Positions 5,930 through 40,451 of a stretch of 64,000 nt of DNA are shown here, piece by piece. Each line of letters begins with the position of its first letter. Positions within the stretch are counted from its first letter, which is position 1. The DNA is from Bolinopsis microptera (Eukaryota; Ctenophora; Tentaculata; Lobata; Bolinopsidae), in contig NC_087074.1 in assembly GCF_026151205.1 (NCBI RefSeq), forward strand, positions 1,920,001-1,984,000, given 5' to 3'. Under the pieces are notes generated by a model that saw only the letters and a program-made list of their open reading frames with translations, did no database searches and was not told where the DNA came from. The position numbers were made by a program, and so were the translations under genes.

Positions 5930-6065
5930 TCCCTACAAAAAATCTAGCCAGGCTAGCGCAGTTTAGCCAGGCTAAATAGGGTTTCTTAAGCTAGCTAAAT
6001 ATGAGGGTTGGCGCGCCGTAGCCAGGCTAAATATCTGTCTTAAGAATCCAGGATAAATAGCCATC
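5930..6065. repeat. Subterminal motif cluster at left tip
   Basis: The motif TAGCCAGGCTA and close variants (GCCAGGCTAAATA, AGCTAGCTAAATA) recur about five times within 130 bp of the left tip. The same cluster sits in mirror image at 32105-32235. Repeated short motifs just inside the ends are typical of transposase binding sites; that role is inferred. Confidence 0.6.
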
Positions 6066-7234
6066 TTATTTATGAGAGTTAAACTCGCCTAAAAATGACA
6101 GTTGGATGCACGTCGCGCCGCGCTTACTTTTGTCTTTAATATGGTAAAATTCATTCCTCGGTATATAAAATTGGTATCCGCGTGCTACATAAATCCGAGA
6201 AATTTTTTGTATAAAAAAAAAGGGGGACCCCCAACCCATGTAGCTGAGACACCTGACAGCAAGTAGACCGGATATATAGGAGTGGGTCTTGCTTCTGAAC
6301 GGTGCATCAACTACCCGCCGAAGCGGTGGGTTGGGAGTCCCCCCTGGGATCATTTCGTCCGTAAAATACAATATAAAATGGCACAGTAAAATATCCGAGA
6401 ATTTGTGAAAGTTTGACAGAACTTTAGGTCGACCGATGTTTTTAAGGGCTATTATTGTTTATTTTTATCATAAACTGTGTTGGATTTGCTCTGGTATGAT
6501 AGGTGGCATATGTGCGGACATTATTTCCATCCAGTTGTGAAATATTTCCCGCAAATAATGAACATTGTTTCATAATACCCTGGACTGAGCTGAAATCGAT
6601 TAATATTGATAAAAATTGCTATGGTGTATGGAGCAAGTAGTTCAGATCCTGGAAACATTTTGCACTTCGGAGTGGCTGGACATGTTAGTATACAACATGG
6701 CTCCCTACCAAGTCAGCCCAGACATGACTACTGACTCAATCTGGCTTGTGGGCCAGTCGCCGTTCAAATGGTAACTCGATTACAAAAACCGGACAGCATG
6801 AATACTTCCGGTTGTAAATCATATACAAGCCACTTTCCATTTGTTCATAACCTCTAACCTTAATACACAATTAAAATTCTTTGAGGGCATATCAACCAAA
6901 CGTAACCAATGATAATAATACGACATTCCAACGAGCACCGCACTATGCTTTATATTAAGTTTCTGTAACATTATGACATACGATATTTTGTTGGGGAGGC
7001 GACTATCGTTGTGAAGTACTGTACTACTCACGAAGTACTGTAACGATGTTTTCAGCCCAAGAGTCAAGCTAAACTGACGGCTCCCAGATGGCGTATGCAC
7101 ATGTAGGTGAATCGGTCAGTTGGGCCGGTCTGATGAAGACTGAAGTCGTTGGTTGGGCTGTGATTGTATCTGCAAGCAGATATTTGAATTGACTAGATTT
7201 CCACTTGTAGCAATCCGGAAAATCATAGGCCGGC

Positions 7235-7315
7235 ACAGTGCCTGGTATGATCCGCCAACCTAGTGAACCTCCGAGTTACATGCATGGTGCTTTACCAATT
7301 GAGCTATCAGCCCTA
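7235..7315 (-). repeat. tRNA-derived SINE head, left arm
   Basis: The complement of this stretch reads GGGCTGATAGCTCAATTGG, with a good RNA polymerase III A-box (TAGCTCAATTGG), and a degraded B-box (GGTTCACTAGG) about 35 bp later. Stems are decayed, so it is not a functional tRNA. SINE body sequence probably continues toward 7120. Confidence 0.6.
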
Positions 7316-8844
7316 ATAATACCAGACAGCCTAAATTCAGGTTTTAAACTACGTATTTTGTAGTACATTCTAGTTTCTGAAAACTCACTTTTCTTCATTG
7401 ATTAAAATAACAATCAAATTGTATGAAATAATTTGAGGGCATTTCAACCAATCCGATGATAACAATACGACCACCAACTAGGCTTTCAGTTTCTGTAATA
7501 TGACAGGATTTTTTATTGTATAAAAACCAATCCGATGATAATAATACGATAGTCTTGCTCGTTAAGAAGTTGATTTTAATTTAATGATTTTTAGTAGTTT
7601 GATATTTCGAAATGCTTACACGATAAACGCTTTTATATTTCAAAGTGAACCTTATATATAAAGAAGTATTACACAGAGTTTCGAATCTAAAATTGTCACA
7701 AACTTTAAATATTATACGTTCTGCAGATATCGCCAGTCTTATCATATGCCCTTGAAAATTGACTGATATCATAATATCCAATATGTAACTCGTTTTTTGT
7801 TTTCAAATAAGTCCTTCAGCAATCTTAGTATCATAATTCCAGCTGTCGGCTGCGACCACTCGTTAGGGGAAATCATGTTTCTCGGCTGCTACTCTTTAGA
7901 ACTTCGTAGCCTGGATAAAAAGGTGGATTAATTATGGTTTATCTCTTTTTTTTCCATTCTTGATTGTTTAATATTCATAAAGTACAAAGGTGGATATTGA
8001 GGTTGACCCAGCGACCAATTAAATATGAAGGGCAAGAGGAAGCAAATTTAAGTAATATTAACAAACCAGGTGTTTCGCTGTCCTTGCTGTGCGAATTTAT
8101 CTTGTCGACACAGCGGTTCGTGTCAAATTGACCAAATTTGTGAACGCTGAGGAAGAGAATTCGGGTTACAAATTTATACTTTTATAATAAGGTAAGGCAA
8201 TTTATTAAGATACTAGTGTAACCCGGGATTTCACTGCCGTAGTTAAAAAGGGTAGGAGTAAGTAAACAAACAGACCGCAATGAGTAAAAGTAAATCATTA
8301 AAGTATTTAACTGCACGTTATTGAATAAATAAAGATGAATACATATTTTATACATGTAATTTATTCATGTGTCTGTATGGAACTTCGAAGAATGACAAAT
8401 TGATATGAAAGTCTGGTTCTTTGCTGACACCTTTTCTCTTGTAGTAAATTTTTTAAACCGGAAAGTATATATAGGGGGAAGCCAAAGGGTATTTAGGGGT
8501 ACTATATTATGGGGGATTTCCAAAATCCACTAAGGCATTCCCCAAAATACTCCAAAATTACTAAAATACCACCTGTGCCTAGTATGTATTTTTACTGTTT
8601 ACAGATGCTATTCTATGGCGTTATACACTATATATAGAGAATGAGGCATAATTTCAAAGTCCTGAGACATTAGGTTGTTGAATTATGTGGCCGCACCTAT
8701 TTGCGCTCTCGCGATTAGCAATTACAGCACTGCACTTTATACAAGATATCTCGGCTTCCAAAGGAGCTAAATGCTCAACTATCGAACATTGCATAACTGA
8801 ATCCATTATAAGACACTGGTGTTTCGATCTCGATAACCTGTGAA

Positions 8845-9245
8845 CAAGACATATCTGTCTTACAAAACAACTTGAACAGTGTCATAAAATGGTCTGAACG
8901 AAAAATGTGGCACTACACAAAGACAAGTTTGAGTATATGTGTCACAGACACAATCTCGACGCAGTGCTCTCGTCAAACTTCCTTTTGTTAGTGAATTGTA
9001 CCAGTACTCGGTAGCCAAAGACAAGTCACTCGCACCTGTAGGCCAACTAAGAGACCTCGGGGTTCTCGTCTCCAACGATCAATCTTGGCAACCCCACGGC
9101 CCACCATAGCAAACAAGGCTCGACAAAAAACTGCCTGGGTTTTCATTGTCTTTCAAACCAGATCACCAGTTATAATGCTTCAGCTCATGCTTTACAAGTC
9201 GATGGTTCGTAGACCGTAGTCTACTGGAATACTTTGACATTACGC
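8845..9245 (+). pseudogene. LINE reverse transcriptase relic, left arm
   Basis: Across shifted frames the plus strand reads LQNNLNSVIKWSERKNV.LH.DKFEYM.H, then DLGVLVSNDQSW-like sequence, then a WVF.VFQTRSPVIMLQLMLYKS stretch and MVR. This is the classic region behind the catalytic palm of non-LTR reverse transcriptases. Frameshifts and stops make it dead. The minus-strand 71-codon frame at 8860-9075 is its antisense shadow. Confidence 0.7.
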
Positions 9246-9259
9246 TCTACCCAATTTAA

Positions 9260-10183
9260 GGGGACAGGGGGTCTTTATGAAATTTCTCTCGAAATTGATT
9301 TTATAGTTGTTTTTGATAGAGGGGAGTGATATCTACTAGTTGTTTTTGGTCCCATGGAAAAATGTTGTTCCTAGCCGAAATTAACGCCGGTCAAAGGTCA
9401 GCGCTCATGTGTAATTGTATTGCGCGAGCGATTTTCAATCACGCGCCCTGAAAATCGCGTTTAAAAATCCATCTTCTCCTACATTTTTTGAGCAATCACC
9501 TTGAAACTTTCAGGGTATGTTCTAAGGACTATTCAAAAACTTCTGGTCTATCAGAATGTTAAGATAGGCCTTAGAAAAGTTTTTATTCGATTTTGAAAAT
9601 CTTGGACCTCGTTTTTTGACGATTTTTCCAGGTCCAAGATTTTCAAAATCGAATAAAAACTTTTATAAGGCCTATCTTAAAATTCTGATAGACCAGAAGT
9701 TTCTAAATGGTCCTTAGAACATACCCTGAAAGTTTCAAGGTGATTGCTCAAAAAATGTAGGAGAACATAGATTTTTTTTGTATTATAATAATGAATGAAT
9801 AAATTACATTCAATTTCAGCAATGGCCAATTGGCTGACTATAAGGTCGCCTGAACAAACAATTTTTTTAAATAGTCAAGTGATCCTAAAGCATAGCACAA
9901 ATGTGTAATAAGTTAAAAGATTAAAAACTGATTCATGTGATGCATTACGCAGAGCACAGATAAAAAAAGATAGATTTTTAGACTCGATTTTCAGGGTGCG
10001 CGATTGAAAATCGCTCGTGCAATACAATTACACATGAGCGCTGACCTTTGGCCGGCGATAATTTCGGCTAGGAACAAAATTTTTCCATGGGACTAAAAAC
10101 AACTAGTAGATATCACTCCCCTCTATCAGAAACAACTATAAAATCAATTTCGAGAGAAATTTCATAAAGACCCCCCTGCCCCC
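9260..10183. mobile_element. TTAA-flanked foldback element, left arm
   Basis: Flanked by TTAA (9256-9259, 10184-10187) with ends GGGGACAGGGGGTCTTTATG and its complement. It is mostly palindromic around 9625 (AATCTTGGACCTCG.. and complement), with a 200-bp inner insertion at about 9770-9968. TTAA targets are used by piggyBac and Kolobok families; no transposase is present. Confidence 0.75.
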
Positions 10184-10349
10184 TTAATATGATCATTTTG
10201 AAAATTTAAATGTCCAAGTTGAGCATTTAGCTTCTTCACAAGCAGAGATATACTGTATTGTAAAGTGCTGTAGTTGCTAATCACGAGAGCGCAAATAGGT
10301 GCAGCTCACAACTCAACATTCTAAAGGATTCTAAAAATTGGATGATGTT

Positions 10350-10925
10350 TTTAGATGGTGGGAAAAACTCAATGAAACTGGGCCAATGTTGGGCTATTAT
10401 CCCAAGGCAGCCAAGACATGGCTCATTGTTAAAACCACATTGCAAAGAGAAAGCTGAAAAAATGTTCCCAAATATACAGGTATCTGAGGTTGGGCACAGA
10501 TATCTTGGATCATTCATTGGAACTGAGCTGAGGAGGGGACAAAATCATTTGTGGAGAGAAAAGTCGATGAATGGAATAACGACATTAAAGATCTAGCAGA
10601 TATTGCTAAAAGGGAACCTCAGGCAGCTTATTCTGCATTCAACTATGGGTTATCTTAAAGATGGAATTATGTATGCCGAACAACACCTGGCATCAGTCAA
10701 CACCTTAAAAGACTAGAATACAAAATTTAAGAATACTTTAAACCAGCAATATTGGATAGATCTTTTGGAACCGACGAAACTAGCAGAAAACTCTTTGCAT
10801 TACCAGTCAAAGAAGGAGGTCTCGGTATATATGACCTAAGTTTGATGTCTGACCTAGAGTACAAGTACTCATGCCAAGTAACATCAGATCTTACAGAAGC
10901 AATATACAAACAAAACCCAAATTTT
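10350..10925 (+). pseudogene. Second reverse transcriptase relic of a different family, left arm
   Basis: Through frameshifts it reads WWEKLNETGPMLGYYPKAAK and TWLIVK, then KEKAEKMFPNIQVSEVGHRY and LGSFIGTE, DLADIAKREPQAAYSAFNYG, CRTTPGISQHLKRLE, and ETSRKLFALPVKEGGLGIYD. I recognise this as the C-terminal part of reverse transcriptases common in marine invertebrate genomes. Two frameshifts and a stop are visible. Confidence 0.7.
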
Positions 10926-12939
10926 TAATAACTATAAGTCATAAGCATTTTCAACTGAAGCATCCAGCAAAATGGACTGAAACTGGTTTGTGTAAACAAA
11001 ATCAATTAAGGCATTCCCTATAATACCCCTTGGCTTCCCCGATAGTTCTAACCATATGTTCTAACCATATTATATGTTCTAACATAATTATCTGAATGAC
11101 AAACCTTAATTGACTTCATCTTTTAATCAGAATATTCCACCTTTTTTCTGCTGTTGACACTCTTGCCTGACACATGTCACTTTGTGTCTAGAGCTCCTTG
11201 TCCCTAAAGGAATTTTGTTGACCAAGACAGTTAAAGTTAAATACGAATTTCTGGAATCTAAAATCAAAATATATTCACAGATAATTTTTTTAAATAATCA
11301 CAAGTAGGCAGTTGTTAAGTAATACCTTTATCAAGCTGTGAATGCTCATCTCCCTCTTAACACTCCTCAGCATCTTTGTAAACTCTTCCCACCTGAACGA
11401 AAATTTGAAAAGAAAAGCTTCTTACCCGAGGAGTAGTTTAAGCCCCTTTTTACAATATTTGTGTGTTTCCTTCGAAAACAAAGTGGTCCAAGATGAATCA
11501 TAATGGTATTAACAGTTGCACAAGTTAAAATATGTGGATTAGATTGGATTAACAATCAAAGTGAGATTTTGCTTTAATGTACTTCCCAAAAAGGTTCCCA
11601 TCAGTAAAGCTGTAAGTTAATTTAAATATTCAAATCAAATCCATGATCAAACAACAAAAATACCTTTATTTAGTAGAGCCAATGCGTGACTTTAGTGGTG
11701 GATCACACTGTAAACGAAGGTTCTTTACAAAAAATCCGATAGAAATAATCCTTGGCCTTGGCTGACATTGCAAAACTAAACAAGAAATTAAAACTTGTAA
11801 GGTAACTGCTAATGCTACGTACTAGCAAGAAAACAACAATTTCAAGAAAAATTCTGAGCGAGTCTGAACTAAACAAAACAAACCCCGCTGGTCAATACAT
11901 AGGAGGGTGACAGACAATAAATGCAGCAAACAATCTAATATATATGGCGTGAAGATTGGCGCTCGATTCATAAGTGATTCAAAATTTAAAATTAATTGGG
12001 GAGCCGCGCGCAAGAATTAAATATAAAGTTAAAATTCATAAATATGAATTTAGTTGTATTCATAAGTCATTTGAAAATGTTTCAGAAATAAAATAAAGCA
12101 AATAAACAACAATCCTGTACTTAACAAATACAACTGAATTTTAAAAACCAAACTTTACTTTTAATTTTTGAGCTTGCAGCGTGGCTTATTTTATTTACTA
12201 TGTTGAAAGTGCTATAATATTATAATCATGCTTAAGAATTTAAATTTTAAAATGAACCGCGTTTACGGTATGAATTATTTTAAAGTATTATGACAAAAAT
12301 AAAATTAAACAGTTAATTAAAACCAATTTCATACTATTAACTAGTGTGGTTGGTTTTATCCGATTTTTTTAGATTTTTATGGAGGTTGTACCATTGTAAA
12401 ACTTACATTGTGACAGTATAGATGGCGAAATATTTTTGAAAATGGTCCTAACACAGCTTTGATACTAACAATAACATTGGGTGAATAGATTGGGTGAACA
12501 AACTATGAAGCAGGCAATTATATGTGCTCATCCATCATTCTGCATATGTAAGCTCAGTAGTTTAATTGCTGATTCATACTCAATGGTGAATCGATAGAAT
12601 TCATGTGTCGGAGATCTCGTGAGAACACCTTTTAATAATTATAGCCCTCAGGATCGCATTATCCTGATCCGGCCGTAATGTGTATTGAGGTATGCACTAA
12701 TTGTAGTGGTGAACGGTTGCAGCTCAGGCTATGTTTCAGTATAACTATATATCAGAGATCGCAGTATATTTACATTCTACTCGGATTGCAGATTGAAATA
12801 TTTTCCTGTTGGAACCATGACACATGCAGGGGAATACCAAAATATTATTTGTAGTTGTACAACTAATATGATCAATAATTAATAACGGCAACGCTAATTT
12901 GTCCTTATTGGACTTTATTTTTACGGACATAAGTTAATA

Positions 12940-13565
12940 GTTGCTGCAAATGCCAAATGCGTTCATTTTAATGTCCGTTCATTTTAATTTTAATATCCGT
13001 TCGAATATTGGCGGACGTTTTAAATTGTAATTAAATAGACCATTGAGCGGTCGCGTTTATTTTAATGTCCGCTCAAAATTATTCCCGTTCACATTATTTC
13101 CGGTTGCAGTACGGGTAAAATAACGTCCGAATAAAGCTATCCGATAAGCTCAGGCAGAGCTTTCGGACTGCGTAAAACTAAACAACTTGAAACGTTGAAG
13201 AACGCCGTTAAGACATCTGTTGTTAACTCACCTAAAACACAAACATACAGTCCAATGGCGAAGAATTCACAGCCAACTGAGCAAGTCATAAGCTCGGAAA
13301 CGCTCAAAAGCGTAGTAAAACGTGTTGTCGAGAAGAGGACCGCAGTCTAGTCGCAACGTCATTGTATTTGGTCTGTTACAAGGGAGCGAGATATATAGAG
13401 AAGTTATTGACACAGTTAGCGTGATTTTCCAAAACATTGGACAGAAACCGAAGATTGTTGAAGCGTGCAAAATTGCCAGAAAATCTAAGGACAATTTAGT
13501 TACAGCATCATTAATAAATGAGCAATTACGTTATTCGTTTAAGTTATTGCAAAATATTTGATTCC
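12940..13565 (+). pseudogene. ORF1-like retroelement fragment A, left arm
   Basis: From ATG at 13256: MAKNSQPTEQVISSETLKSV, then a frameshift, then RNVIVFGLLQGSEIYREVID and SVIFQNIGQKPKIVEACKIA. The RNVIVFG...IGQKP...A.RIA pattern resembles the ORF1-type or RNA-binding region of LINE-related proteins. Broken by frameshift; upstream 12940-13150 has CTTATCGGA / ATTTTACGGAC motifs shared with fragment B. Confidence 0.5.
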
Positions 13566-13789
13566 AATAAATAAAATCCGCCTTGTGCCGCGTGCGCTAA
13601 TTTACTAATTCTGTACTCGCCTGCGTACACTGTACTGTACAGTGTACAGCAGGAGCAGGCCTGCAGGCATCATGCTACATGCGATTTTACAAATAATGTT
13701 CGACTTCAATTTAGACTTTCAGTTGTTGTAGTTGTACTGTATACTAATTGTGTCGGTTTATATATTTACCAGGCGGCGCTCAAATTGCA

Positions 13790-14466
13790 TGATCAATAAC
13801 GCTAATTTGTCCTTATTGGACTTTATTTTTACGGACATAAGTTAATAGTTGCAAATGCCAGATGCTACAAGTTAAGCACTAGCGTTCATTTTAATGTACG
13901 TTTATTTTAATATCCGTTCGAATTTTGGCGGACGTTTTAAATTGTTAGTAAATAGAGCATTGAGCGGTCACGTTTATTTTAATGTCCTCTCAAAATTATG
14001 GCTACGCCCGTTCACATTATTTCCGGTTGCGGTACGGGTAAAATAACGTCCGAATAAAGCTATCCGATAAACTCAGGCAGAGCTTTCGGACTGTAAAACT
14101 GGACAACTTGAAATGTTGAAGAACGCCGTTAAGACATATACTGTTAATTGTTGACTCACCTAAAACACAAACATACAGTTCAATGGCGAAGAATTCACAG
14201 CCAAAGCTGAGCAAGTCATAAGCTTGGAAACGCTCAAAAGCGTAGTAAAACGTGTTGTTGAGGAAGAGGACCGCAGTCGCAACGTCATTGTATTTGGTCC
14301 GTCACAAGGGAGCGAGATATATAGAGAACTTATTGACACAGTTAGCGAGATTTTTCAAAACATTGGACAGAAACCGAAGATTGTTGAAGCGTGCAGAATT
14401 GCCACGAAATCTAAGGACAATTCAGTTACAGCATCATTAATAAGTGAGCTTACGTTATTCGTTTAA
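13790..14466 (+). pseudogene. ORF1-like retroelement fragment B, left arm
   Basis: Direct repeat of fragment A. It is open from 14224 (METLKSVVKRVVEEEDRSRN, then VIVFGPSQGSEIYRELIDTV) up to the tetranucleotide tract. A frameshift after NSQPK separates it from its own ATG at 14183. Confidence 0.5.
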
Positions 14467-15053
<587 letters not shown>

Positions 15054-15780
15054 ATTTCCGAGCGGCTTAATTAAGAAAACGGTAAGAGTTACGGCAGTCT
15101 CTATATTTACTAGGCGTTTTTAATGCTAAATGTGTTTCACTTTCAGTGTTTATAAACACAAAAGCTGAGGTCCCCAGGTAATGAAACATATTAACATAAT
15201 ATTAATATTATGAATTGGGTCATGCCATGTGAATTTTATATGCTAATCTGCATTCATCACGCTTTTATACTAATAAATTATTCTTATGTAATGAGTAAGC
15301 ACGAGAATTTACCTATGATACTAATACTAATAATAATAATTAGAACCCATAGATTTATTTTTTCTGGCATTACCATTTAGTTGAGTTTGTAGCGTATATA
15401 TGACGCTTTGCCCTTGTCAGAGGGTCTATCATTATGAGTTTAGATTGAAATTGGCTAATCTCCTCTGAATTGAATACAAATAACACACCATTTAGTGACA
15501 AAATTCGTGCTACCCAGGGTCTGCAGGCCACCTGGCCACCCATGATGGGGTGTCATAATCATGTATTTGTAACTTGTGGTGGATCGAACAAGTAGCTTCA
15601 AAACTATTTGGACTGTAATACTAATTTGTAATAGCCCCTAGGCTTATTAAACAACATAACTCATGATGCTAATTTGCTCAAAAGACACTTTTAACACATT
15701 TCTCAAGGTAACTTCATGATAGCTATTAGAGCCTCAGACGTGTTACCGAAGCTCTAATGTTCTACAAAAAAATGTATAAT

Positions 15781-15967
15781 CATGTTTTTGGCTAATACTA
15801 TGACAAAATTAAAAACTACTCTTTTCGTAATTCATTTATTTGCAAAACTTTGATTATCAGAACAGTATTTCAATAATAATAGTAATACTATTTTCCAAAA
15901 GTGCGTATCTATCAAAAGTTTATTAACATCTACTTTCAGTTTATAGATTACACTAATCTTAAGTCTA
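15781..15967. other. Transposase gene 3' flank
   Basis: A short AT-rich stretch between the left arm's inner end and the stop codon. The complement contains AATAAA-like words (for example near 15835), which could serve polyadenylation; nothing firmer is seen. Confidence 0.3.
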
Positions 15968-18900
15968 TTAATCGAAATCCTTAAATAATTCCCTGTTAAA
16001 GGGCGTATCTTTAACTTTCTTCGACTTTGGAGTCGAGTCTGTATCAGTTCTGTACCGCTTGTGCGTTACTCTACCCGAAAACTCTTTCCGTGCAGCTCCT
16101 ATCTGGAGGACACTCATCAATTGAGTGTCTTCAGTCCGTCGTCGTTGAACAGCGTGGGACACAAGTGCGACAGTGTGCTCCACAGATTGACTATGGCAAG
16201 GAATCCTACAAACCAGAGGGGCTTCCCGTATCTTTTCCAGTTCAGCACTTGACATTACGGAGAGGAGGGGAGGGCACGTTACTCGCTCCCACTCATTGTC
16301 GTACGTCTGGAAGAATATCTTCATTGGAACCGGACCGTTCTCTTTCTGAATGAAGGGCAAATTAGTTATTTGATCGGTAAATCGTAATACAAGTGTAATA
16401 ATAATATAACTGAAACAGGGACAGAGTTCGTGGTATATTTGACAGACTAGGTAGACTCAGCAAATTAGTTAACAAATTCTGCATTCTGCTAGTTCAGTAG
16501 AATGAACGCACAGTCTTACTTTTCGTTTGTCAGATTTTGATGCAAAAGCATAATATCGGCAGACTTACTAAGTCTGCCGATCACTTAACATGGTCACTTA
16601 ACATGGTAAAGTATCGTCAAATGGTTTGGAAATCAAACCATTGCATAATTACAATATCACTATAGTTATACATGCTCTATAAACTCACCTCAACTTTCAT
16701 TCTGACCATCTCAAAATATGTCGTACATTTGAAGACTATCTTCGGGCACTTGAAATGTCGGATTCGTCTAGGTCGCCGAACGCCAGACTCTCTTTCAACG
16801 TGCTTGTCCCACTCCTCTGAACGACGAATATTCTTTACGATCCCTATTCCTTTCTCTCGATGGTCTCTGTTGTGATCGCCTGGATAATAAATATGTATAT
16901 AAAGTTTTTTACAATAGATGTAAAATATTGTTGGTTGGATATTGTGTTAAAGTCAAGTGATTCTAAGAGCACCTGCACATTTATAATTTATAACCGCAAG
17001 AATTCGGACGTAAGCACAGAATACCACTACCAGCTGAATATTCACTGCTCTGATAGTAATAGTATCATATTGTTATTTTAAGTGTGCCTAGCTATATTAC
17101 CCACTTTCCGTATTCATTTTGTTGTTGTTGTTATTCTTACCTAGCATGGCGAGTATCACACTCTCGGGATGAGCCATATAGCCGTTCTGTTGTATTGACT
17201 CGAATATGACCTTACGCTCTGCTGGTTCGCAGTGTTCTCTTGTGAACCGTATTTGGTCAAATAGGTGGGCTGGGGCGTCTATTAAGCTGCTCTTCATCTT
17301 GATGTTGGCAAACACCTATTGAGATTTAGTCCGATTTAATAGAAATTCTGAGTAACTTTGGTACTTAAGGGAAACATAGGCTGAACATTCTCTGATTTTC
17401 ATCAATATTGTAAGAGCATTTAAATTTGAATAAACATTAGCAATCAATTCACAAGTGCCAGCACTGTAATCTGATTTTTACCTTGTAATAGACATTTACA
17501 ATAAAGTTGACCATCCTCTCTAAACACTCCGAAATATGGGAGTTGTAGGTAAGATCCCCCGAAATGTAAAATCGGAGGATTCTGGCCCCAAACGTAATCC
17601 ACCGAGCAGTGGAGCAGTTTCCTATCGCGTTATACACGAAGTCGTCGTGTAAACCAGTCTCGACAGTGATGCAGTACTTATACATAAGTTTTGCATCATT
17701 TGACATCTTACTCAGCGTCTGAAAAAAAAACAGATTGTTATTAATTTTAACGTTGCTAGGTAAGAGCTCTATGATTTTGTCGAACATTATCGCAATGATT
17801 GATAAACATGGAACTGCAAAACGGTTCAGTAAGTTATCTTCCCAGCAAATTATAAACGAAGTTACTATCTAACAATAAGATTATCCATTATTAACCATAT
17901 CAATTTTAAATTATATATCACCTCTTGGGGCAGTCGAGGAAAACCTTTGCCAATCTTTTTAAATACTCTAACTGGTTTCAGCCAAAGTTCGTTGGACATA
18001 ATGAAGGGCCCCATAGGTCCGTCAAAGTCACCAGGTGCTGTAATGATATATAATAATGATATACACGTTATTTTGAGTGTAAGTGTAAGAATTAACGATG
18101 ATAATATTAATTGTAAAGTGAAATTTATTGGCGTAGTTATCGAGGAAATCCCTGCAATCGTTATAGTAATAAGGAATGTTTAATACTGTGGAAATTCTAA
18201 ACTGTTATTTTAAAATACTATAACATATCTTCAAATTTAAAATAAATAACACACCCTTGGTACTTCCTCCATAGTGAAAGTACAATTTTCTCAAGGGGAG
18301 TTCCACTTGGTGTAAGAGGCACAGGGCTCTTTGGAGTGTTCGATGTAGCAGAACCTCAAACTCTCGAAAAGCACCTCCCTGAAAATTGTTTATTTTAATA
18401 TGTTTTAACGAACGAAATGGTTGTCTAATAGTATCCAATGCTCAGCTAAAAGATGAAAAGTTCCTTATCTGAAATGAAAAATAAGTTATTTACTTACCAG
18501 ATAGCCAGAATTAACACTAGTGTTGTCTCCACCTATACACAATGTTTTGTCCGTGCTTATCCCTCGACTTTCAAAGTAGTTACACAATCCCAGAGCAAGA
18601 CCTTTACCTGTGGTATGAAGATTAAGTAATCAACAAAGAATCGGCATAAATGTAACATTGTAACTGCAGAACCTATTCCGGAAATCTAATGCAACATTAA
18701 AATGGAACGAGACATATATAACGTTAGTCGTTAGACCGTTTATTATGTACCAATGATCAAAATAACATCGCAATGTATAAAAATATATTCATCTAAGTAT
18801 AATCTTTATCTAGTGCTTACCAGTCGATTGCTCAGGAACAAACATCCCCAAAGGGATCGCACCAGGCTGTTCTACCACAGAGTAGTGGCTCCGTTTCCCC

Positions 18901-20456: not shown

Positions 20457-20471
20457 GGTGGGCTCAAAAGT

Positions 20472-20681
20472 TTATAAAAGTGGTGTTATTGATGCAGATG
20501 GCGTTGTTTTATTTATAGTTATATGATTATTGAATATTGAGGCTAATTGTGGGAATTGAGAAGCATAGATATTGGGCACATCAAACGATTTTTTTGCAGG
20601 GCATTTGAACTTCGGTAACAGTAATTTAGAAGTTACCTTGAACAATGTGTTAAAAGTGTCTATTGAGTAAATTAACATCAT
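20472..20681 (-). other. Upstream ORF before the transposase-like gene
   Basis: A 69-codon open frame ends with a TAA only 16 bp before the start codon at 20456. It includes FKCPAKKSFDVPN and is partly covered by the inner end of the right arm. It may be an upstream ORF in the 5' leader, a lost N-terminal exon, or chance. No conserved domain is recognised. Confidence 0.25.
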
Positions 20682-21117
20682 GAGTTATGTCGTTTAATAA
20701 GCTTAAGGGCTATTAAAGTCCAAATTGTTTCGAAGCTAATTGTTCGATCAACCGCAAGTTACATGATTATACCACCCCGTCATGGGTGGGTAGCACTAGC
20801 ACCAATTTGACACTAAATGGTAATTTCAGAAAAAATAAATCCATGAGTTCTAATTATTATTAATAGTAGGTCAATTCTCGTGCTTACTCATTACATAAGA
20901 ATAATTTATTAGTATAAAAACCGTGATGAATGCAGATTAGCATATAAAATTCACATGGCATGACCCAATTCATAATATTAATATTATGTTAATATGTTGC
21001 ATTACCTGGGGACCTCAGCTTTTGTGTTTATAAACAGAATGACAAGTTGAACGCCGCCTAGTAAATATATAGACCACCGTAACTCTTACCGTTTTCTTGA
21101 TTAAGCCGCTTGGAAAT

Positions 21118-21978
<861 letters not shown>

Positions 21979-22019
21979 GCCTGTTCCTGCTGCAGTACAG
22001 TGTACGCAGGCGAGTACAG

Positions 22020-22640
22020 ATTTCCTAGCAATTCTGCACGCTTCAACGATCTTCGGTTTCTGTCCAATGTTTTGAAAAATCTCGCTAACTGTGTCAATAA
22101 GTTTTCTATATATCTCGCTCCCTTGTGACGGACCAAATACAACGACGTTGCGACTGCGGTCCTCTTCCTCAACAACACGTTTTACTACGCTTTTGAGCGT
22201 TTCTGAGATTATGACTTGCTCAGCTTTGGCTGTGAATTCTTCGCCATTGAACTGTATGTTTGTGTTTTAGGTGAGTCAACAATTAACAGTATATGTCTTA
22301 ACGGCGTTCTTCAACATTTCAAGTTGTCCAGTTTTACAGTCCGAAAGCTCTGCCTGAGTTTATCGGATAGCTTTATTCGGACGTTATTTTACCCGTACCG
22401 CAACCGGAAATAATGTGAACGGGCGTAGCCATAATTTTGAGAGGACATTAAAATAAACGTGACCGCTCAATGCTTTATTTACTAACAATTTAAAACGTCC
22501 GCCAAAATTCGAACGGATATTAAAATAAACGGACATTAAAATGAACGCTAGTGCTTAACTTGTAGCATCTGGCATTTGCAACTATTAACTTATGTCCGTA
22601 AAAATAAAGTCCAATAAGGACAAATTAACGTTATTGATCA
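22020..22640 (-). pseudogene. ORF1-like retroelement fragment B, right arm
   Basis: Mirror of 13790-14440. The part next to the tetranucleotide tract differs from the left arm: ATTGCTAGGAAATC, then CAGGCGAGTACA-type sequence instead of the SKDNSVTASLI coding end. Confidence 0.5.
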
Positions 22641-22695
22641 TGCAATTTGAGCGCCGCCTGGTAAATATATAAACCGACACAATTAGTATACAGTA

Positions 22696-24470
22696 TTTGA
22701 CCAAAACCCATAATCATGGGTAGAGTGTACCGCTGCCAGTGTCTCTCTTTTCCAAACAAAAGGAAATGATATTAATTTGAGGAACAGTCCGCTAATGCAA
22801 ATTGATACCGAGAATGAAATCGGTCGCTCGCTTTTTCAAATCAATAAGCTTTATTACAATTCGTAAGCCGTGATCGAATGGAAAAAGCGAGCGACCGATT
22901 TCATTCTCGGTATCAATTTGCATTAGCGGACTGTTCCTCAAATTAATATCATTTCCTTTTGTTTGGAAAAGAGAGACACTGGCAGCGGTACACTCTACCC
23001 ATGATTATGGGTTTTGGTCAAATATCATCTCTTTTTGATTATAATGTCAGGATAATTTACACAGCTAGTCGAAACTTCATTAACAAGGAGGTAATTTCGA
23101 CGATTTCGAAATTCTGCCTTTGAAAACGTTTCCTTGTGTTTAGTTAGGTATTTCTGTCGATAACCGACTGAATATGGCACTTTTTACTCATTCAAGTTGG
23201 CATTAAATTCATATATAATGCCATTTAAATATCGTGGAAAGCAGAATATATTCGAAATCACGAATGAGCAAATTTCTCACCTTTCGCACGTGCAAACTTT
23301 GAGCGGACGTCGCGTGCGCATACAATATTGAATCACCGTAAATTTTTGCATAGTGGTATTTAATATATAGTTTGATAAGCATGCAAAGTTTCAGAAGATT
23401 TCAAAAAGAACTTGGATCACAGCGGGACTCCAAAGTTGATAAAAATCGTGAAAATCAAAATTTTTAGCGATTTTAGCGATTTTAAATGAATTTGGGCGTG
23501 TCCCCACGTGTGCAACTTTTCGATTTTTAACTTTAAAACTAGCCTATAACACAATTTACACCTTTAAGAAGCAAAATTGAGCTCCACAACCCAAGGGATG
23601 GCCCAACACCAGAGAATACTAATTCACAACTTTTGTGTTTTTATAAAATTATTCTTCAAAAAAGCACTAACTTCAATAGCAAATATCTTTATGAAGGAGC
23701 AAGGTAGGAAACTATTCCGGTAGATTTTCGGAATGCTTGAACAATTATCTAAGATGAAAATGTCCTCAGATTTTGAATTAAATTACTTCTTAATAGTGTA
23801 AAATCGATTTAAAAAGTTGTTACTTTGTCAAAAGTCAAGTTTTAAAAACACTTAACTTGATGACGTCATCAAGTGATGATGATGACGTTAAATTATTTTT
23901 CAATACAATGTAAACTAAAGCTTAAACAATTATCTTTAAAACATGTGGTTCGAAATGACTGTATCGTTTATACTTTTGAATCTACGGACACTTAAATGTA
24001 GGCTACAATTGACTGCAAAAAGCGTCTATACATACGTACATATATATCTTCACGACAATCTGTTGTAAAACAGGGGTTCCAGAAAACCCACTTCCCGATA
24101 CTCCTGAAACATGACATTTTTTTTACAGTCGATTTGGACAAGGTCTAGACGCCCTGCAAAGTTTCAGATCTCTAACTCAATTTTAACATGGTTTTTAAGG
24201 CACCTGAATATGGCGATTTTGGGTTTTTTACCTAATTTCGTATAACATGCTGGCGCGTATTTTGCGCAAATTTCTTAAAAACCTCCATACAACTATTTCT
24301 TATTCCTGTCATCTTCAACATTGAATTAGAATGTTTTGAACTTAAATGTACCTGCTGAACTACTTTCGATGAGTCTTAATGCCTGGAAAACAATAAAGGG
24401 GATATAATCGTATAGGGGGTAAATAGTGTTGTGAATATAAGGGCGACGGTAATGCTTGCCAGCATTGTGA
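22696..24470. mobile_element. R1 insertion present only in the right arm
   Basis: The right arm reads ATTAGTATACAGTA, then this 1.78-kb block, then CAACTACAACAACTG. The left arm reads continuously across the same point (reverse complement near 13733). The block holds the ACCAAAACCC foldback (22700-23018) and R1 sequence inverted relative to 2091-3136, plus about 420 bp of unmatched sequence at its far end. It therefore arrived after the arms formed. Confidence 0.8.
22700..23018. repeat. ACCAAAACCC foldback element, copy 3
   Basis: A nearly perfect palindrome of about 320 bp with the same ends as the other two copies and almost no loop. Confidence 0.8.
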
Positions 24471-24639
24471 CAACTACAACAACTGAAAGTCTAAATTGAA
24501 GTCGAACATTATTTGTAAAATCGCATGTAGCATGATGCCTGCAGGCCTGCTCCTGCTGTACACTGTACAGTACAGTGTACGCAGGCGAGTACAGAATTAG
24601 TAAATTAGCGCACGCGGCACAAGGCGGATTTTATTTATT

Positions 24640-25320
24640 GGAATCAAATATTTTGCAATAACTTAAACGAATAACGTAATTGCTCATTTATTAATGACGC
24701 TGTAACTAAATTGTCCTTAGATTTTCTGGCAATTTTGCACGCTTCAACAATCTTCGGTTTCTGTCCAATGTTTTGGAAAATCACGCTAACTGTGTCAATA
24801 ACTTCTCTATATATCTCGCTCCCTTGTAACAGACCAAATACAATGACGTTGCGACTAGACTGCGGTCCTCTTCTTCGACAACACGTTTTACTACGCTTTT
24901 GAGCGTTTCCGAGCTTATGACTTGCTCAGTTGGCTGTGAATTCTTCGCCATTGGACTGTATGTTTGTGTTTTAGGTGAGTTAACAACAGATGTCTTAACG
25001 GCGTTCTTCAACGTTTCAAGTTGTTTAGTTTTACGCAGTCCGAAAGCTCTGCCTGAGCTTATCGGATAGCTTTATTCGGACGTTATTTTACCCGTACTGC
25101 AACCGGAAATAATGTGAACGGGAATAGTTTTGAGCGGACATTAAAATAAACGCGACCGCTCAATGGTCTATTTAATTACAATTTAAAACGTCCGCCAATA
25201 TTCGAACGGATATTAAAATTAAAATGAACGGACATTAAAATGAACGCATTTGGCATTTGCAGCAACTATTAACTTATGTCCGTAAAAATAAAGTCCAATA
25301 AGGACAAATTAGCGTTGCCG
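24640..25320 (-). pseudogene. ORF1-like retroelement fragment A, right arm
   Basis: Mirror of 12940-13565 with the same frameshift after KRVVE. The two fragments are now about 1.8 kb further apart than in the left arm because of the R1 insertion between them. Confidence 0.5.
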
Positions 25321-27344
25321 TTATTAATTATTGATCATATTAGTTGTAGTTGTACAACTACAAATAATATTTTGGTATTCCCCTGCATGTGTCATGGTTC
25401 CAACAGGAAAATATTTCAATCTGCAATCCGAGTAGAATGTAAATATATTGCGATCTCTGATATATAGTTATACTGAAACATAGCCTGAGCTGCAACCGTT
25501 CACCACTACAATTAGTGCATACCTCAATACACATTACGGCCGGATCAGGATAATGCGATCCTGAGGGCTATAATTATTAAAAGGTGTTCTCACGAGATCT
25601 CCGACACATGAATTCTATCGATTCACCATTGAGTATGAATCAGCAATTAAACTACTGAGCTTACATATGCAGAATGATGGATGAGCACATATAATTGCCT
25701 GCTTCATAGTTTGTTCACCCAATCTATTCACCCAATGTTATTGTTAGTATCAAAGCTGTGTTAGGACCATTTTCAAAAATATTTCGCCATCTATACTGTC
25801 ACAATGTAAGTTTTACAATGGTACAACCTCCATAAAAATCTAAAAAAATCGGATAAAACCAACCACACTACTATTAACAAATACAGTTTAATTCATTTTA
25901 AAATTTAACCTTATCTTTTAAATTTTTTGTGTGGCTTATTATTTTATTTCAAAATCGCTCATTAATTTTTGACAACATGGTAATTTGTATTTATCATTAT
26001 TTTGTCATCTTCCTTAAAAACCAGCGGGGTTTATTTTGGAACTCAGCTGAAATTCTTTAGCAATATTATAATATTATAGCAATTTTAACATAGTAAATAA
26101 AATAAGCCACGCTGCAAGCTCAAAAATTAAAAGTAAAGTTTGGTTTTTTAAATTCAGTTGTATTTATTAAGTACAGGATTGTTGTTTATTTGCTTGATTT
26201 TATTTCTGAAACATTGTGAAAATATTTTCAAATGACTTATGAATACAACTAAATTCATATTTATGAATTTTAACTTCACATTTAATTCTTGCGCGCGGCT
26301 CCCCAATTAATTTTAAATTTTGAATCACTTATGAATCGAGCGCCAACCTTCACGCCATATATATTAGATTGTTTGCTGCATTTATTGTCTGTCACCCTCC
26401 TAATGTAATTGACCAGCGGGGTTTGTTTTGTTTAGTTCAGACTCACTCAGAATTTTTCTTGAAATTGTTGTTTTCTTGCTAGTACGTAGCATTAGCAGTT
26501 ACCTTACAAGTTTTAATTTCTTGTTTAGTTTTGCAATGTCAGCCAAGGCCAAGGATTATTTCTATCGAATTTTATGTAAAGAACCGTCGTTTACAGTGTG
26601 ATCCACCACTAAAGTCACGCATTGGCTCTTCTAAATAAAGGTATTTTTGTTTGATCATGGATTTGATTTGAATATTTAAATTAACTTACAGCTTTATTGA
26701 TGGGAACCCTTTTGGGAAGTACATTAAAGCAAAATCTCACTGTGATTGTTAATCCAATCTAATCCACATATTATTACTTGTGCAACTGTTAATACCATTA
26801 TGATTCATCTTGGACCACTTTATTTTCGAAGGAAACCCACAACTATTGTAAAAAGGGGCTTAAATTACTCCTTGGGTAAGAGGCTTTTCTTTTCAAATTT
26901 TCGTTCAGGTTAGAAGAATTTACATATATGCTGAGGAGTGTTACGAGGGAGATGAGCATTCACAGCTTGATAAAGGTATTACTTAACAACTGCCTGCTTG
27001 TGATTATTTAAAAAAATTATCTGTGAATATATTTTGATTTTAGATTCCAGAAATTCGTATTTAACTTTAACTGTCTTGGTCAACAAAATTCCTTTAGGGA
27101 CAAGGAGCTCTAGACACAAAGTGACATATGTCAGGCAAGAGTGTCAACAGCAGAAAAAAGGTGGAATATTCTGATTAAAAGATGAAATCAATTAAGGTTT
27201 GTCATTCAGATAATTATGTTAGAGAATATAATATGGTTAGAACATATGGTTAGAACTATCGGGGAAGCCAAGGGGTATTATAGGGAATGCCTTAATTGAT
27301 TTTGGCAATCCCCCATGATAAAGTTCCCCATAATACCCAAAAAA

Positions 27345-27840
27345 TACACCTCCTTCTTTGACTGGTAATGCAAAGAGTTTTCTGCTAGTTTCGTCGGTTC
27401 CAAAAGATCTATCCAATATTGCTGGTATAAAGGATTCTTGAATTTTGTATTCTAGTCTTTTAAGGTGTTGACTGATGCCAGGTGTTGTTCGGCATACATA
27501 ATTCCATCTTTAAGATAACCCATAGTTGAATGCAGAATAAGCTGCCTGAGGTTCCCTTTTAGCAATATCTGCTAGATCTTCAATGTCGTTATTCCATTCA
27601 TCGACTTTTCTCTCCACAAATGATTTTGTCCCCTCCTCAGCTCAGTTCCAATGAATGATCCAAGATATCTGTGCCCAACCTCAAATACCTGTATATTTGG
27701 GAACATTTTTTCAGCTTTCTCTTTGCAATGTGGTTTTAACAATGAGCCATGCCTTGGCTGCCTTGGGATAATAGCCCAACATTGGCCCAGTTTCATTGAG
27801 TTTTTCCCACCATCTGAGAACATCATCCAATTTTTAGAAT
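27345..27840 (-). pseudogene. Second reverse transcriptase relic, right arm
   Basis: Mirror of 10350-10830. It shares the same disrupting frameshifts in the KEKAEKMFPNIQV region, which shows decay before duplication. The segment coding GLGIYDLSLMSD in the left arm is missing here. Confidence 0.65.
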
Positions 27841-27984
27841 CCTTTAGAATGTTGAGTTGTGAGCTGCACCTATTTGCGCTCTCGTGATTAGCAATTACAG
27901 CACTCTACAATACAGTATATCTCTGCTTGTGAAGAAGCTAAATGCTCAACTTGGACATTTAAATTTTCAAAATGATCATATTAA

Positions 27985-28874
27985 GGGGGCAGGGGGTTCT
28001 TTATGAAATTATTCTCGAAATTGATTTTATAGTTGTTTCTAATAGAGGGGAGTGATATCTACTAGTATTTTTTTGTCCCATGGAAAAAATTTGTTCCTAG
28101 CCGAAATTATCGCCGGCCAAAGGTCAGCGCGCACCCTGAAAATCGAGTCTAAAAATCTATCTTTTTTTATCTGTGCTCTGCGTTATGCATCACATGAATC
28201 AGTTTTTAATCTATTAACTTATTACACATTTGTGCTATGCTTTAGGATCACTTGACTATTTAAAAAAATTGTTTGTTCAGGCCATGACCTTATAGTCAGC
28301 CAATTGGCCATTGCTGAAATTGAATGTAATTTATTCATTCATTATTATAATACAAAAAAAATCTATCTTCTCCTACATTTTTTGAGCAATCACCCTGAAA
28401 CTTTCAGGGTATGTTCTAAGGACCATTTAGAAACTTCTGGTCTATCAGAATTTTAAGATAGGCCTTATAAAAGTTTTTATTCGATTTTGAAAATCTTGGA
28501 CCTGGAAAAATCGTCAAAAAACGAGGTCCAAGATTTTCAAAATCGAATAAAAACTTTTCTAAGGCCTATCTTAACATTCTGATAGACCAGAAGTTTTTGA
28601 ATGGTCCTTAGAACATACCCTGAAAGTTTCAGGGTGATTGCTCGAAAAATGTAGGAGAAGATGGATTTTTAAACGCGATTTTCAGGGCGCGTGATTGAAA
28701 ATCGCTCGCGCAATACAATTACACATGAGCGCTGACCTTTGACCGGCGTTAATTTCGGCTAGGAACAACATTTTTCCATGGGACCAAAAACAACTAATAG
28801 ATATCACTCCCCTCTATCAAAAACAACTATAAAATCAATTTCGAGAGAAATTTCATAAAGACCCCCTGCCCCCC
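27985..28874. mobile_element. TTAA-flanked foldback element, right arm
   Basis: Mirror of 9260-10183, again with TTAA on both sides and the same 200-bp inner insertion (about 28165-28365). Confidence 0.75.
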
Positions 28875-28889
28875 TTAAGTTGGGTAGAG

Positions 28890-29290
28890 CGTAATGTCAA
28901 AGTATTCCAGTAGACTACGGTCTACGAACCATCGACTTGTAAAGCATGAGCTGAAGCATTATAACTGGTGATCTGGTTTGAAAGACAATGAAAACCCAGG
29001 CAGTTTTTTGTCGAGCCTTGTTTGCTATGGTGGGCCGTGGGGTTGCCAAGATTGATCGTTGGAGACGAGAACCCCGAGGTCTCTTAGTTGGCCTACAGGT
29101 GCGAGTGACTTGTCTTTGGCTACCGAGTACTGGTACAATTCACTAACAAAAGGAAGTTTGACGAGAGCACTGCGTCGAGATTGTGTCTGTGACACATATA
29201 CTCAAACTTGTCTTTGTGTAGTGCCACATTTTTCGTTCAGACCATTTTATGACACTGTTCAAGTTGTTTTGTAAGACAGATATGTCTTGT
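28890..29290 (-). pseudogene. LINE reverse transcriptase relic, right arm
   Basis: Mirror of 8845-9245. The antisense 71-codon frame (29059-29274) translates identically in both arms, so at least 216 bp have stayed almost unchanged between arms although the sequence is non-functional. Confidence 0.7.
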
Positions 29291-30825
29291 TCACAGGTTA
29301 TCGAGATCGAAACACCAGTGTCTTATAATGGATTCAGTTATGCAATGTTCGATAGTTGAGCATTTAGCTCCTTTGGAAGCCGAGATATCTTGTATAAAGT
29401 GCAGTGCTGTAATTGCTAATCGCGAGAGCGCAAATAGGTGCGGCCACATAATTCAACAACCTAATGTCTCAGGACTTTGAAATTATGCCTCATTCTCTAT
29501 ATATAGTGTATAACGCCATAGAATAGCATCTGTAAACAGTAAAAATACATACTAGGCACAGGTGGTATTTTAGTAATTTTGGAGTATTTTGGGGAATGCC
29601 TTAGTGGATTTTGGAAATCCCCCATAATATAGTACCCCTAAATACCCTTTGGCTTCCCCCGCCCTATATATACTTTCCGGTTTAAAAAATTTACTACAAG
29701 AGAAAAGGTGTCAGCAAAGAACCAGACTTTCATATCAATTTGTCATTCTTCGAAGTTCCATACAGACACATGAATAAATTACATGTATAAAATATGTATT
29801 CATCTTTATTTATTCAATAACGTGCAGTTAAATACTTTAATGATTTACTTTTACTCATTGCGGTCTGTTTGTTTACTTACTCCTACCCTTTTTAACTACG
29901 GCAGTGAAATCCCGGGTTACACTAGTATCTTAATAAATTGCCTTACCTTATTATAAAAGTATAAATTTGTAACCCGAATTCTCTTCCTCAGCGTTCACAA
30001 ATTTGGTCAATTTGACACGAACCGCTGTGTCGACAAGATAAATTCGCACAGCAAGGACAGCGAGACACCTGGTTTGTTAATATTACTTAAATTTGCTTCC
30101 TCTTGCCCTTCATATTTAATTGGTCGCTGGGTCAACCTCAATATCCACCTTTGTACTTTATGAATATTAAACAATCAAGAATGGAAAAAAAAGAGATAAA
30201 CCATAATTAATCCACCTTTTTATCCAGGCTACGAAGTTCTAAAGAGTAGCAGCCGAGAAACATGATTTTCCCCTAACGAGTGGTCGCAGCCGACAGCTGG
30301 AATTATGATACTAAGATTGCTGAAGGACTTATTTGAAAACAAAAAACGAGTTACATATTGGATATTTTGATATCAGTAAATTTTCAAGGGCATATGATAA
30401 GACTGGCGATATCTGCAGAACGTATAATATTTAAAGTTTGTGACAATTTTAGATTCGAAACTCTGTGTAATACTTCTTTATATATAAGGTTCACTTTGAA
30501 ATATAAAAGCGTTTATCGTGTAAGCATTTCGAAATATCAAACTACTAAAAATCATTAAATTAAAATCAACTTCTTAACGAGCAAGACTATCGTATTATTA
30601 TCATCGGATTGGTTTTTATACAATAAAAAATCCTGTCATATTACAGAAACTGAAAGCCTAGTTGGTGGTCGTATTGTTATCATCGGATTGGTTGAAATGC
30701 CCTCAAATTATTTCATACAATTTGATTGTTATTTTAATCAATGAAGAAAAGTGAGTTTTCAGAAACTAGAATGTACTACAAAATACGTAGTTTAAAACCT
30801 GAATTTAGGCTGTCTGGTATTATTA

Positions 30826-30905
30826 GGGCTGATAGCTCAATTGGTAAAGCACCATGCATGTAACTCGGAGGTTCACTAGGTTGGCGGACCATACCGGGCA
30901 CTGCC
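30826..30905 (+). repeat. tRNA-derived SINE head, right arm
   Basis: Mirror copy of 7235-7315, with the same A-box TAGCTCAATTGG and B-box-like GGTTCACTAGG. It was carried into both arms, so it predates the arm duplication or was copied between arms. Confidence 0.6.
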
Positions 30906-32104
30906 GGCCTATGATTTTCCGGATTGCTACAAGTGGAAATTAGTCAATTCAAATATCTGCTTGCAGATACAATCACAGCCCAACCAACGACTTCAGTCTT
31001 CATCAGACCGGCCCAACTAACTATACCATCAGACCGATTCACCTACATGTGCATACGCCATCTGGGAGCCGTCAGTTTAGCTTGACTCTTGGGTTGAAAA
31101 CATCGTTACAGTACTTCGTGAGTAGTACAGTACTTCACAACGATAATCCGCCTCCCCAACAAAATATCGTATGTCTGATGTCATAATATTACAGAAACTT
31201 AATATAAAGCATAGTGCGGTGCTCGTTGGAATGTCGTATTATTATCATTGGTTACGTTTGGTTGATATGCCCTCAAAGAATTTTAATTGTGTATTAAGCC
31301 AGAGGTTATGAACAAATGGAAAGTGGCTTGTATATGATTTACAATCGGAAGTATTCATGCTGTCCGGTTTTTGTAATCGAGTTACCATTTGAACGGCGAC
31401 TGGCCCACAAGCCAGATTGAGTCAGTAGTCATGTCTGGGCTGACTTGGTAAGGAGCCATGTTGTGTACTAACATGTCCAGCCACTCCGAAGTGCAAAATG
31501 TTTCCAGGATCTGAACTACTGACCAAATGGAAAATTGCTCCATACACCATAGCAATTTTTATCAATATTAATCGATTTCAGCTCAGTCCAGGGTATTATG
31601 AAACAATGTTCATTATTTGCGGGAAATATTTCACAACTGGATGGAAATAATGTCCGCACATATGCCACCTATCATACCAGAGCAAATCCAACACAGTTTA
31701 TGATAAAAATAAACAATAATAGCCCTTGAAAACATCGGTTGATCAAAAGTTCTGTCAAACTTTCACAAATTCTCGGATATTTTACTGTGCCATTTTATAT
31801 TGTATTTTACGGACGAAATGATCCCAGGGGGGACTCCCAACCCACCGCTTCGGCGGGTAGTTGATGCACCGTTCAGAAGCAAGACCCACGCCTATATATC
31901 CGGTCTACTTGCTGTCAGGTGTCTCAGCTACATGGGTTGGGGGTCCCCCTTTTTTTTAAACACAAAATTTCTCGGATTTATGTAGCACGCGGATACCAAT
32001 TTTATATACCGAGGGTAGAATTACACCATATTAAAGACAAAAGTACGCGCGGCGCGACGTCCATCCAACTGTCATTTTTAGGCGAGTTAAACTGTCATAA
32101 ATAA

Positions 32105-32240
32105 GATGGCTATTTATCCTGGATTCTTAAGACAGATATTTAGCCTGGCTACGGCGCGCCAACCCTCATATTTAGCTAGCTTAAGAAACCCTATTTAGCC
32201 TGGCTAAACTGCGCTAGCCTGGCTAGTTTTTTGTAGGGTT
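32105..32240. repeat. Subterminal motif cluster at right tip
   Basis: Mirror of the cluster at 5930-6065. It reads outward through TATTTAGCCTGGCTA repeats to GCTAGCCTGGCTAG and TTTTTTGTAGGG, then changes to unrelated flanking DNA. Confidence 0.6.
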
Positions 32241-36050: not shown

Positions 36051-36463
36051 CTTTGAATTAACAATGGAAATTTCATACTGATACAGCTTTGTTCATTTCC
36101 TAAATTGGGTGATTATAAATTTGTAGGTTTACAACCTACCAGGACGCGCGCCAAGTTGGACTTTTACAAGTATCACCCGTTAATTATAAATACAAATTTG
36201 ATTGTATTGGTGTCTGCACGGTAATATTGCACGGCCAAGGTAATATTTTCTTTCGTCACAACTTATGTAATAAAGTGTAAAGTGCCGTTGAACGTAGAAT
36301 CGTTGCGCAAAACTTTCGAAATTGCAGCTAAACTCAACACTATGTCCCATGACCAAACACTTCAAAAACACATTATTAGAACTGTGCCGCTATAGTGCCC
36401 GCTTACCGCGCTATTGTCATTTGTCATACCACATACGTTGTATGACCCGCCGCGCATGAGTTT

Positions 36464-36787
36464 ACCTGGGGACCCCATGGGCTATTATGTTCATTAACAT
36501 AGAGATTAGGCGGAATGACAGGCTGAGCGCGGCCCAGTAAGCACGAGTGCGCGGCTCCCCTGTATACAGGGGAGCCGTCAGGGGGAAACGACCGCGTGGG
36601 GGGGGGGGGGTCACAACGTGATACAACCGCGCTACTTAACTGGTCACGTGGGATCACGTGTAGCGTGTCCGCTAGGTCACGCGACCAGCACTGCAGTACT
36701 CATGACTCAGGACGCCAGGAAAGTCAGGGCCTGAGGGCCAGTTGTATCATGTTGTTTATGAACAGAAAAAGCCTGAGGTACCCAGGT
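36464..36787. mobile_element. MITE with ACCTGGGGACC ends
   Basis: The inverted ends are ACCTGGGGACC at 36464 and GGTACCCAGGT at 36787, followed internally by TGTTCAT(A/T)AACA on each side. The same terminus appears at 57342, 15179 (inward-facing) and 21004. A run of 13 or more G lies near 36598. No ORF. Confidence 0.5.

Positions 36788-38014: not shown

Positions 38015-38057
<43 letters not shown>
38015..38057. repeat. Poly-G tract
   Basis: 43 consecutive G. The matching tract in unit 2 (61791-61809) is about 18 long and broken by one C. Confidence 0.9.

Positions 38058-38059
<2 letters not shown>

Positions 38060-39085: not shown

Positions 39086-40451
<1,366 letters not shown>

Follow-up and report, generated by a model that had tools for sequence, protein, structure and literature searches.

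The window analysed here, 64,000 nucleotides from the ctenophore Bolinopsis microptera (NC_087074.1, contig C3 in our numbering, 1920001–1984000; genome of 264.65 Mb in 232 contigs), contains a block of 26 kb whose two halves mirror each other around a single gene. Alignment of the window with itself by BLAST gives mirrored blocks that begin at 5931/32238 and extend toward the middle as far as 15381/20812. They measure 4935 bp (97.0% identity), 1258 bp (95.7%), 1401 bp (99.3%), and 1328 bp (95.2%), all with E = 0, and a weaker extension at 80% identity continues to 15715/20629. The single-copy core between these arms is nearly filled by one minus-strand gene (20456..15968), with mirrored DNA starting ~170 bp upstream of its ATG and ~250 bp beyond its stop codon. 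An earlier interpretation made from the letters of this DNA (the sequence-only reading) had put these distances within 200 bp, had described ~10-kb inverted arms around an undamaged gene, and had proposed that the whole might be one recently active giant transposon driven by that gene. The arms are real, the gene does fill the core almost completely, and it is indeed undamaged (11 exons, 753 aa, no internal stop). The single element does not survive, as a boundary within the mirrored arms, at 12342/25870, separates two different elements. We interpret the block as two transposons, the inner one lying inside an older outer one, and assign this reading a probability of roughly 0.85.

The Inner Element and Its Copies

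The inner transposon occupies 12342..25870 and has tips TAGTGTGGTTGG. Its inverted repeats, ~3 kb long, lie at 12342..15381 on the left and 20812..25870 on the right and contain tandem duplicates and a 4-bp array, seen as GTCT at 14467–15053 in the left arm and as ACAG at 21119–21978 in the right. The right arm is interrupted at ~22696–24469 by a high-copy 1.77-kb repeat (22696..24469), whose near-full copies number at least 40 genome-wide, with 40 of 2131 candidates scored. Directly outside the tips, comparison of the flanks identifies an 8-bp target duplication, CTATTAAC, at 12334..12341 and 25871..25878 (both on the plus strand).

These ends recur elsewhere in the genome. A 2-kb query from the core gave seven other full-length matches at 98%–100% identity, plus partial ones (all 17 candidates scored), and such near-identical copies point to the recent activity that had been proposed. 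We read ~30 kb around six of the seven full-length matches, two of them (C9a and C3b) with 5,000 bases masked. In all six, similarity to the window starts at 12340–12342 and stops at the mirrored position, and stretches of 250 bp or more that match the outer arms are absent from the flanks. The inner tip 21-mer, TAGTGTGGTTGGTTTTATCCG, which is inverted at the two ends of the element, has 25 exact matches in the genome, comprising 12 convergent pairs and one orphan, and its reversed-sequence control has none. The pairs span 5.7 to 22.2 kb. Exact target duplications are found at 11 of the 12 pairs, 9 bp long in seven and 8 bp long in four (the window, C12, C8, and C9c); that of C1 sits in a tandem repeat and is therefore less certain. 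At the remaining pair, C13b, there is no exact duplication, and 9 bp fits only with one base skipped. With its long inverted repeats holding internal repeats, its dispersed copies with identical ends, and its target duplications, the inner element is by structure a foldback-type transposon.

The 12 joined target sites give no signal that the inner element favours palindromes, as central complementarity (38 of 136) lies within the range found at shifted positions (24 to 43 of 136–140). The target sites of three copies (C8, C9c, and C12) lie in, or no more than ~30 bp from, sequence close to TGACGATGTCAAT, perhaps a shared target repeat. The inner arms also carry repeated open-frame fragments (RNVIVFGPSQGSEIY and similar; window 14164–14466, 22018–22266, and 24644–25071), the unit being duplicated within each arm. 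We presume that these fragments resemble the protein of a long interspersed nuclear element.

The Core Gene and Its Predicted Product

The core gene (15968..20456, minus strand), whose exons were placed by hand, has 11 exons separated by 10 GT-AG introns, and its frame of 753 aa is open throughout. It is present in 10 of the 12 inner tip pairs. The other two, C8 (5.7 kb) and C13b (22.2 kb), show no match to the core DNA (all 17 candidates scored) or to the protein (60 of 259 scored); part of a more distantly related sequence is present in C13b. Exons, splice sites, and frame are intact in four of the five fully readable copies (the window, C1, C12, C9b, and C4), the fifth, C1, having small frame-shifting indels. 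Among the masked copies, C9a has gaps in two of six readable exons and C3b has none in seven. A relative on contig C7 (L044) has the same 11 exons, its third acceptor being not exactly placed, and 88% protein identity to the core gene. Comparison over 752 codons with this one relative gives a synonymous divergence (dS) of 0.25 and a nonsynonymous divergence (dN) of 0.064, for a dN/dS of 0.25. The conserved exon structure, taken with this ratio, indicates that purifying selection has maintained both frame and splicing.

The predicted protein has no counterpart in curated collections. No Pfam family matches it at E ≤ 1 (whole protein) or E ≤ 10 (core), and no NCBIfam or PDB family was matched; a profile search of PDB returned three rows only, at E of 0.67 or worse, and further rows at 0.064 or worse were also taken as chance. 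Two Pfam rows obtained for its relatives, bpX3 (E = 0.21) and SSXT (E = 0.15), fell below the curated cut-offs and were rejected. A search of viral contigs with the core protein yielded no relative, and neither did a search of plasmids with part of a distant relative. Within this genome the family is larger. A distant relative on contig C1 has ~30% identity to the core protein, and 66 stretches match the central domain of that relative at E ≤ 0.01, several per gene. Another distant relative (L065; G000:C9:273500–274100), which also has no Pfam match, occupies an open frame whose reported length is 507 aa with no stop, so that the wider transposase family seems to include intronless genes.

Across four divergent sequences the motifs FDG, GxDxTSxN, and CxxH are invariant, in the spacing pattern D-x75-D...CxxH, and the proposed catalytic E684 is kept in the three of the four that reach that position. 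Because the core protein has no curated homolog, the case for transposase activity rests on the place of the gene between the tips and on this motif pattern (D262, D338, CxxH at 367, E684), which together suggest a DDE-type transposase of unplaced superfamily. The gene might instead be a captured host gene or a passenger in an element that another transposase moves, as its ten introns, the lack of any match to a curated transposase family, and the two tip pairs with no detected copy (C8 and C13b) would allow. We consider either case unlikely, however, given that the core has no other sizeable gene, that 10 of 12 pairs contain this one, that its family has at least 66 matching stretches in the genome, as for a mobile-element gene, and that four divergent sequences all keep D, D, and CxxH.

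The Outer Element

The outer element is split by the inner one. Its left part (5931..12341) consists of an arm at 5931–12241 followed by 100 bp of loop that ends in the left target duplication of the inner element, and its right part (25871..32238) of the right target duplication, 171 bp of loop, and an arm at 26050–32238; these limits come from the self-alignment and the tip pairs. An alignment of the two arms shows 116 differences over 6131 aligned positions, plus 238 columns with gaps. The outer tips, CCCTACAAAAAA, lie at 5931 and 32238, the right one without one T directly after it, and TT is found at both outer ends.

The sequence-only reading suggested transposon DNA as opposed to a segmental inversion and looked to other copies of the same tips for a decision. 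In the genome these tips do recur, with the same ends, as convergent pairs elsewhere whose 2-bp flanks match, and a segmental inversion is rejected on these grounds. A 16-mer of the outer tip (CCCTACAAAAAATCTA) has 15 exact matches, namely four convergent pairs (C4, C5, C6, and C8), the left tip of the window, and six others, and its reversed control has none. The 2-bp flanks agree in all five outer pairs, being TT in the window, CA in C4, TT in C5, CA in C6, and TG in C8. The outer 12-base tip occurs at 64 sites, versus 65 for its reversed control, and is hence nonspecific when used alone.

The C4 copy is the one outer relative that was read whole. It is 14,877 bp long, with arms of ~7 kb that are 98.9%–99.6% identical and a spacer of 887 bp (24% GC), and it contains no open reading frame longer than 136 aa (stop to stop) and no inner element. 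Its collinearity with the outer arms and loop of the window is patchy, mostly at 65%–80% identity. The recurring inverted tips, the 2-bp duplications, and the absence of an evident gene of its own argue that the outer element is a non-autonomous DNA transposon, nearly all of it palindrome.

When the exact 12-base tip was used to seek an autonomous partner, no convergent pair within 40 kb turned up beyond the five already known; a partner with altered tips would escape such a search. Within the loop of the C6 copy (G000:C6:15782268–15796702, L032 and L033) lies a block of 14.4 kb that has inverted ends of its own (CACT...AGTG, with GCGCGCAGTGTTGTGACC in common) and a duplication of 5 bp, AGATT. 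This block was considered as the autonomous partner and rejected, its own inverted tips and 5-bp duplication marking it as a foreign insert. A foreign transposon is thus found in the loop of two of the five paired outer copies, which may reflect chance or preference.

One might also regard the outer part as an inverted duplication of ordinary DNA, with mobility confined to the inner part. Such a duplication would account for the six of 15 exact 16-mer tips that are unpaired, besides the left tip of the window, for the single arm seen in 9 kb read around the C10 tip, and for the failure to find a cognate transposase. It is nonetheless very unlikely in view of the five blocks bounded by tip pairs, all with 2-bp flanks that match, and of the tip and collinear mirrored design that C4 and the window share despite their divergence.

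Two Probable Insertions

That the core gene moves one transposon of 26 kb, with inverted repeats of 10 kb, is scarcely credible. At low resolution the arms do look continuous, with the gene at their centre, but the inner ends recur without outer arms in all six copies read and are flanked in the window by the CTATTAAC duplications, the two tip types differ, and the C4 outer relative has no inner element. The claim that the gene drives the whole block is likewise contradicted, both by the element to which the gene belongs, which ends at 12342 and 25870 with its own tips and its own 8–9-bp duplications, and by the separateness of the outer family, whose sole relative read whole is without the core gene.

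Several observations weigh against two nested transposons. The transposase that moves the outer element was not found. Similarity between the window and C4 is lost between the collinear patches, and their first 400 bp, aligned end to end, are about half identical. The core protein is without a curated homolog, its role as a transposase being drawn from position and motifs. Finally, the evidence for both insertions comes from copies within one genome and not from empty-site alleles.

If the two-transposon reading is correct, the inner element would be autonomous, its spliced gene encoding a transposase that recognizes the TAGTGTGG tips. Boundaries and duplications are observed for both elements; the catalysis proposed here would consist of cutting the inner element out and pasting it with staggered cuts that leave duplications of 8–9 bp. 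The outer element would be moved in trans by another transposase, leaving duplications of 2 bp. As to the order of events, the outer element would have inserted first, with TT at its ends. The inner element would then have entered the 271-bp loop of the outer element, of which 100 bp now lie to its left and 171 bp to its right. The 1.77-kb repeat would have entered the inner right arm last, copy C1 being uninterrupted at that point.

Homogenization of the Arms

The arms of a given copy tend to agree with each other at sites that vary between copies. An alignment of the inner arms of seven copies (14 arms) has 13 variable columns free of gaps among its first 540, and at seven of these the state is common to both arms of each copy, some states being private to one copy. 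In the 400-bp outer tips of C4, C5, and C8, the two arms of each copy are identical, and all four between-copy differences are found in both arms. Near the loop, a comparison of C4 with C6 over 717 bp, with three alignment-edge columns set aside, finds three sites common to both arms and one that is not. Over 4.8–4.9 kb, the left arm of the window is nearer to its own right arm (97.0%) than to C10 (96.4%). Independent mutation of the arms would not yield such arm-shared sites, which point to homogenization. Counting the other way, six of the 13 inner columns differ in one arm only, and the left outer tip of the window, over 398 positions, has one difference from C10 and 12 from its own right tip. 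Homogenization is thus real but not constant, the outer tips of the window forming an exception.

In both families, then, the two arms of an element would from time to time be corrected against one another, and we take gene conversion from arm to arm as the simplest reading. A bolder one is recopying through a hairpin, in which one arm would be recopied from the other at transposition, so that 7-kb arms remain matched while copies diverge, and a 2-bp duplication would be left. The full form of this idea, with the outer family as giant mobile palindromes that move via a self-annealed single-strand hairpin and the inner gene as a superfamily that has no curated model and occupies many genome sites, strikes us as doubtful.

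Comparison with Known Elements

No published description of these elements was found by titles and the beginnings of abstracts, within the library and terms searched. The inner element is of foldback type with an unplaced transposase; the outer, a larger palindrome, duplicates 2 bp and shows no gene. In transposases of the hAT superfamily the motifs D, D, CxxH, and RW are followed by a late E, and hAT elements follow a YARNG tip rule and make 8-bp duplications. The motif order of the inner protein and the tip TAGTG fit these rules; however, seven of the 12 inner pairs have 9-bp duplications, and Pfam finds no hAT domain.

The remaining comparisons are with elements as they are described in excerpts of the cited papers. 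Tm1 of root-knot nematodes is a foldback-type element with gene-bearing and gene-free copies, of which Tm1-A is 2.6 kb long with a 496-aa product (PMC3169594). Both Tm1 and Tetris of Drosophila virilis have composite inverted repeats and duplications of 8–10 bp (PMC3169594, PMC4079207). The inner element resembles them in its long composite inverted repeats with internal repeats, in the size of its duplications and, for Tm1, in the existence of gene-free copies. It differs from Tm1 in that its arms are ~3 kb, its gene has 11 exons, and no Mutator model is matched, and the outer element differs from both in duplicating 2 bp and not 8–10 bp. The longest copy of Galileo (P superfamily) in Drosophila willistoni measures 9,021 bp, its arms 4,246 and 4,680 bp, and it lacks the transposase segment (PMC4168063), a foldback-like design similar to that of the outer element. 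The duplications of Galileo, however, are 7–8 bp at a palindromic target, compared with 2 bp for the outer element and 8–9 bp for the inner, whose target is not palindromic, and Pfam finds no P-element model and no P-type transposase with a THAP domain in the core protein.

Inverted repeats of Mutator-like elements (MULEs) reach 500 bp in one account (PMC6446971) and 1,193 bp (text) or 1,527 bp (table) in another (PMC13359780), with duplications of 8–11 bp, 9 in Rehavkus (PMC6446971, PMC13359780). The inner element is similar in its 8–9-bp duplications and unusually long inverted repeats, but these are ~3 kb as opposed to at most 1,527 bp, no MULE model is matched, and Pfam finds no MULE-type transposase domain in the core protein (E ≤ 1 whole, E ≤ 10 core). 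Teratorn, at 41–182 kb and with ~90 other genes, has long inverted and internal terminal repeats (PMC6431247), and so shares with this block terminal repeats at more than one level; here, in contrast, two unrelated tips mark two separate insertions. The foldback-type architecture is already known, and the unusual features are the unplaced transposase and the large palindrome.

Elsewhere in the Window

Outside the mirrored block, direct repeats ~16–23 kb apart, at 89%–94% identity and partly a 308-bp tandem repeat, link 32964–40764 with 49138–64000 (for example, 34091–35666 with 55737–57343, and 38988–40764 with 62306–64000). GC skew is +0.25 to +0.29 over 8 kb at 40001–48000, and −0.71 over 2 kb at 52001–54000, the latter in a C/T-rich tandem array of ~29-bp units.

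Implications

A long mirror-image block can be a nest of mobile elements, and not one giant transposon or an inversion. The inner gene would belong to a recently active family of multi-exon transposase genes that Pfam does not model and that routine annotation would miss. Near-identical copies with clean target duplications provide material for learning how multi-kilobase palindromes move and stay symmetric.

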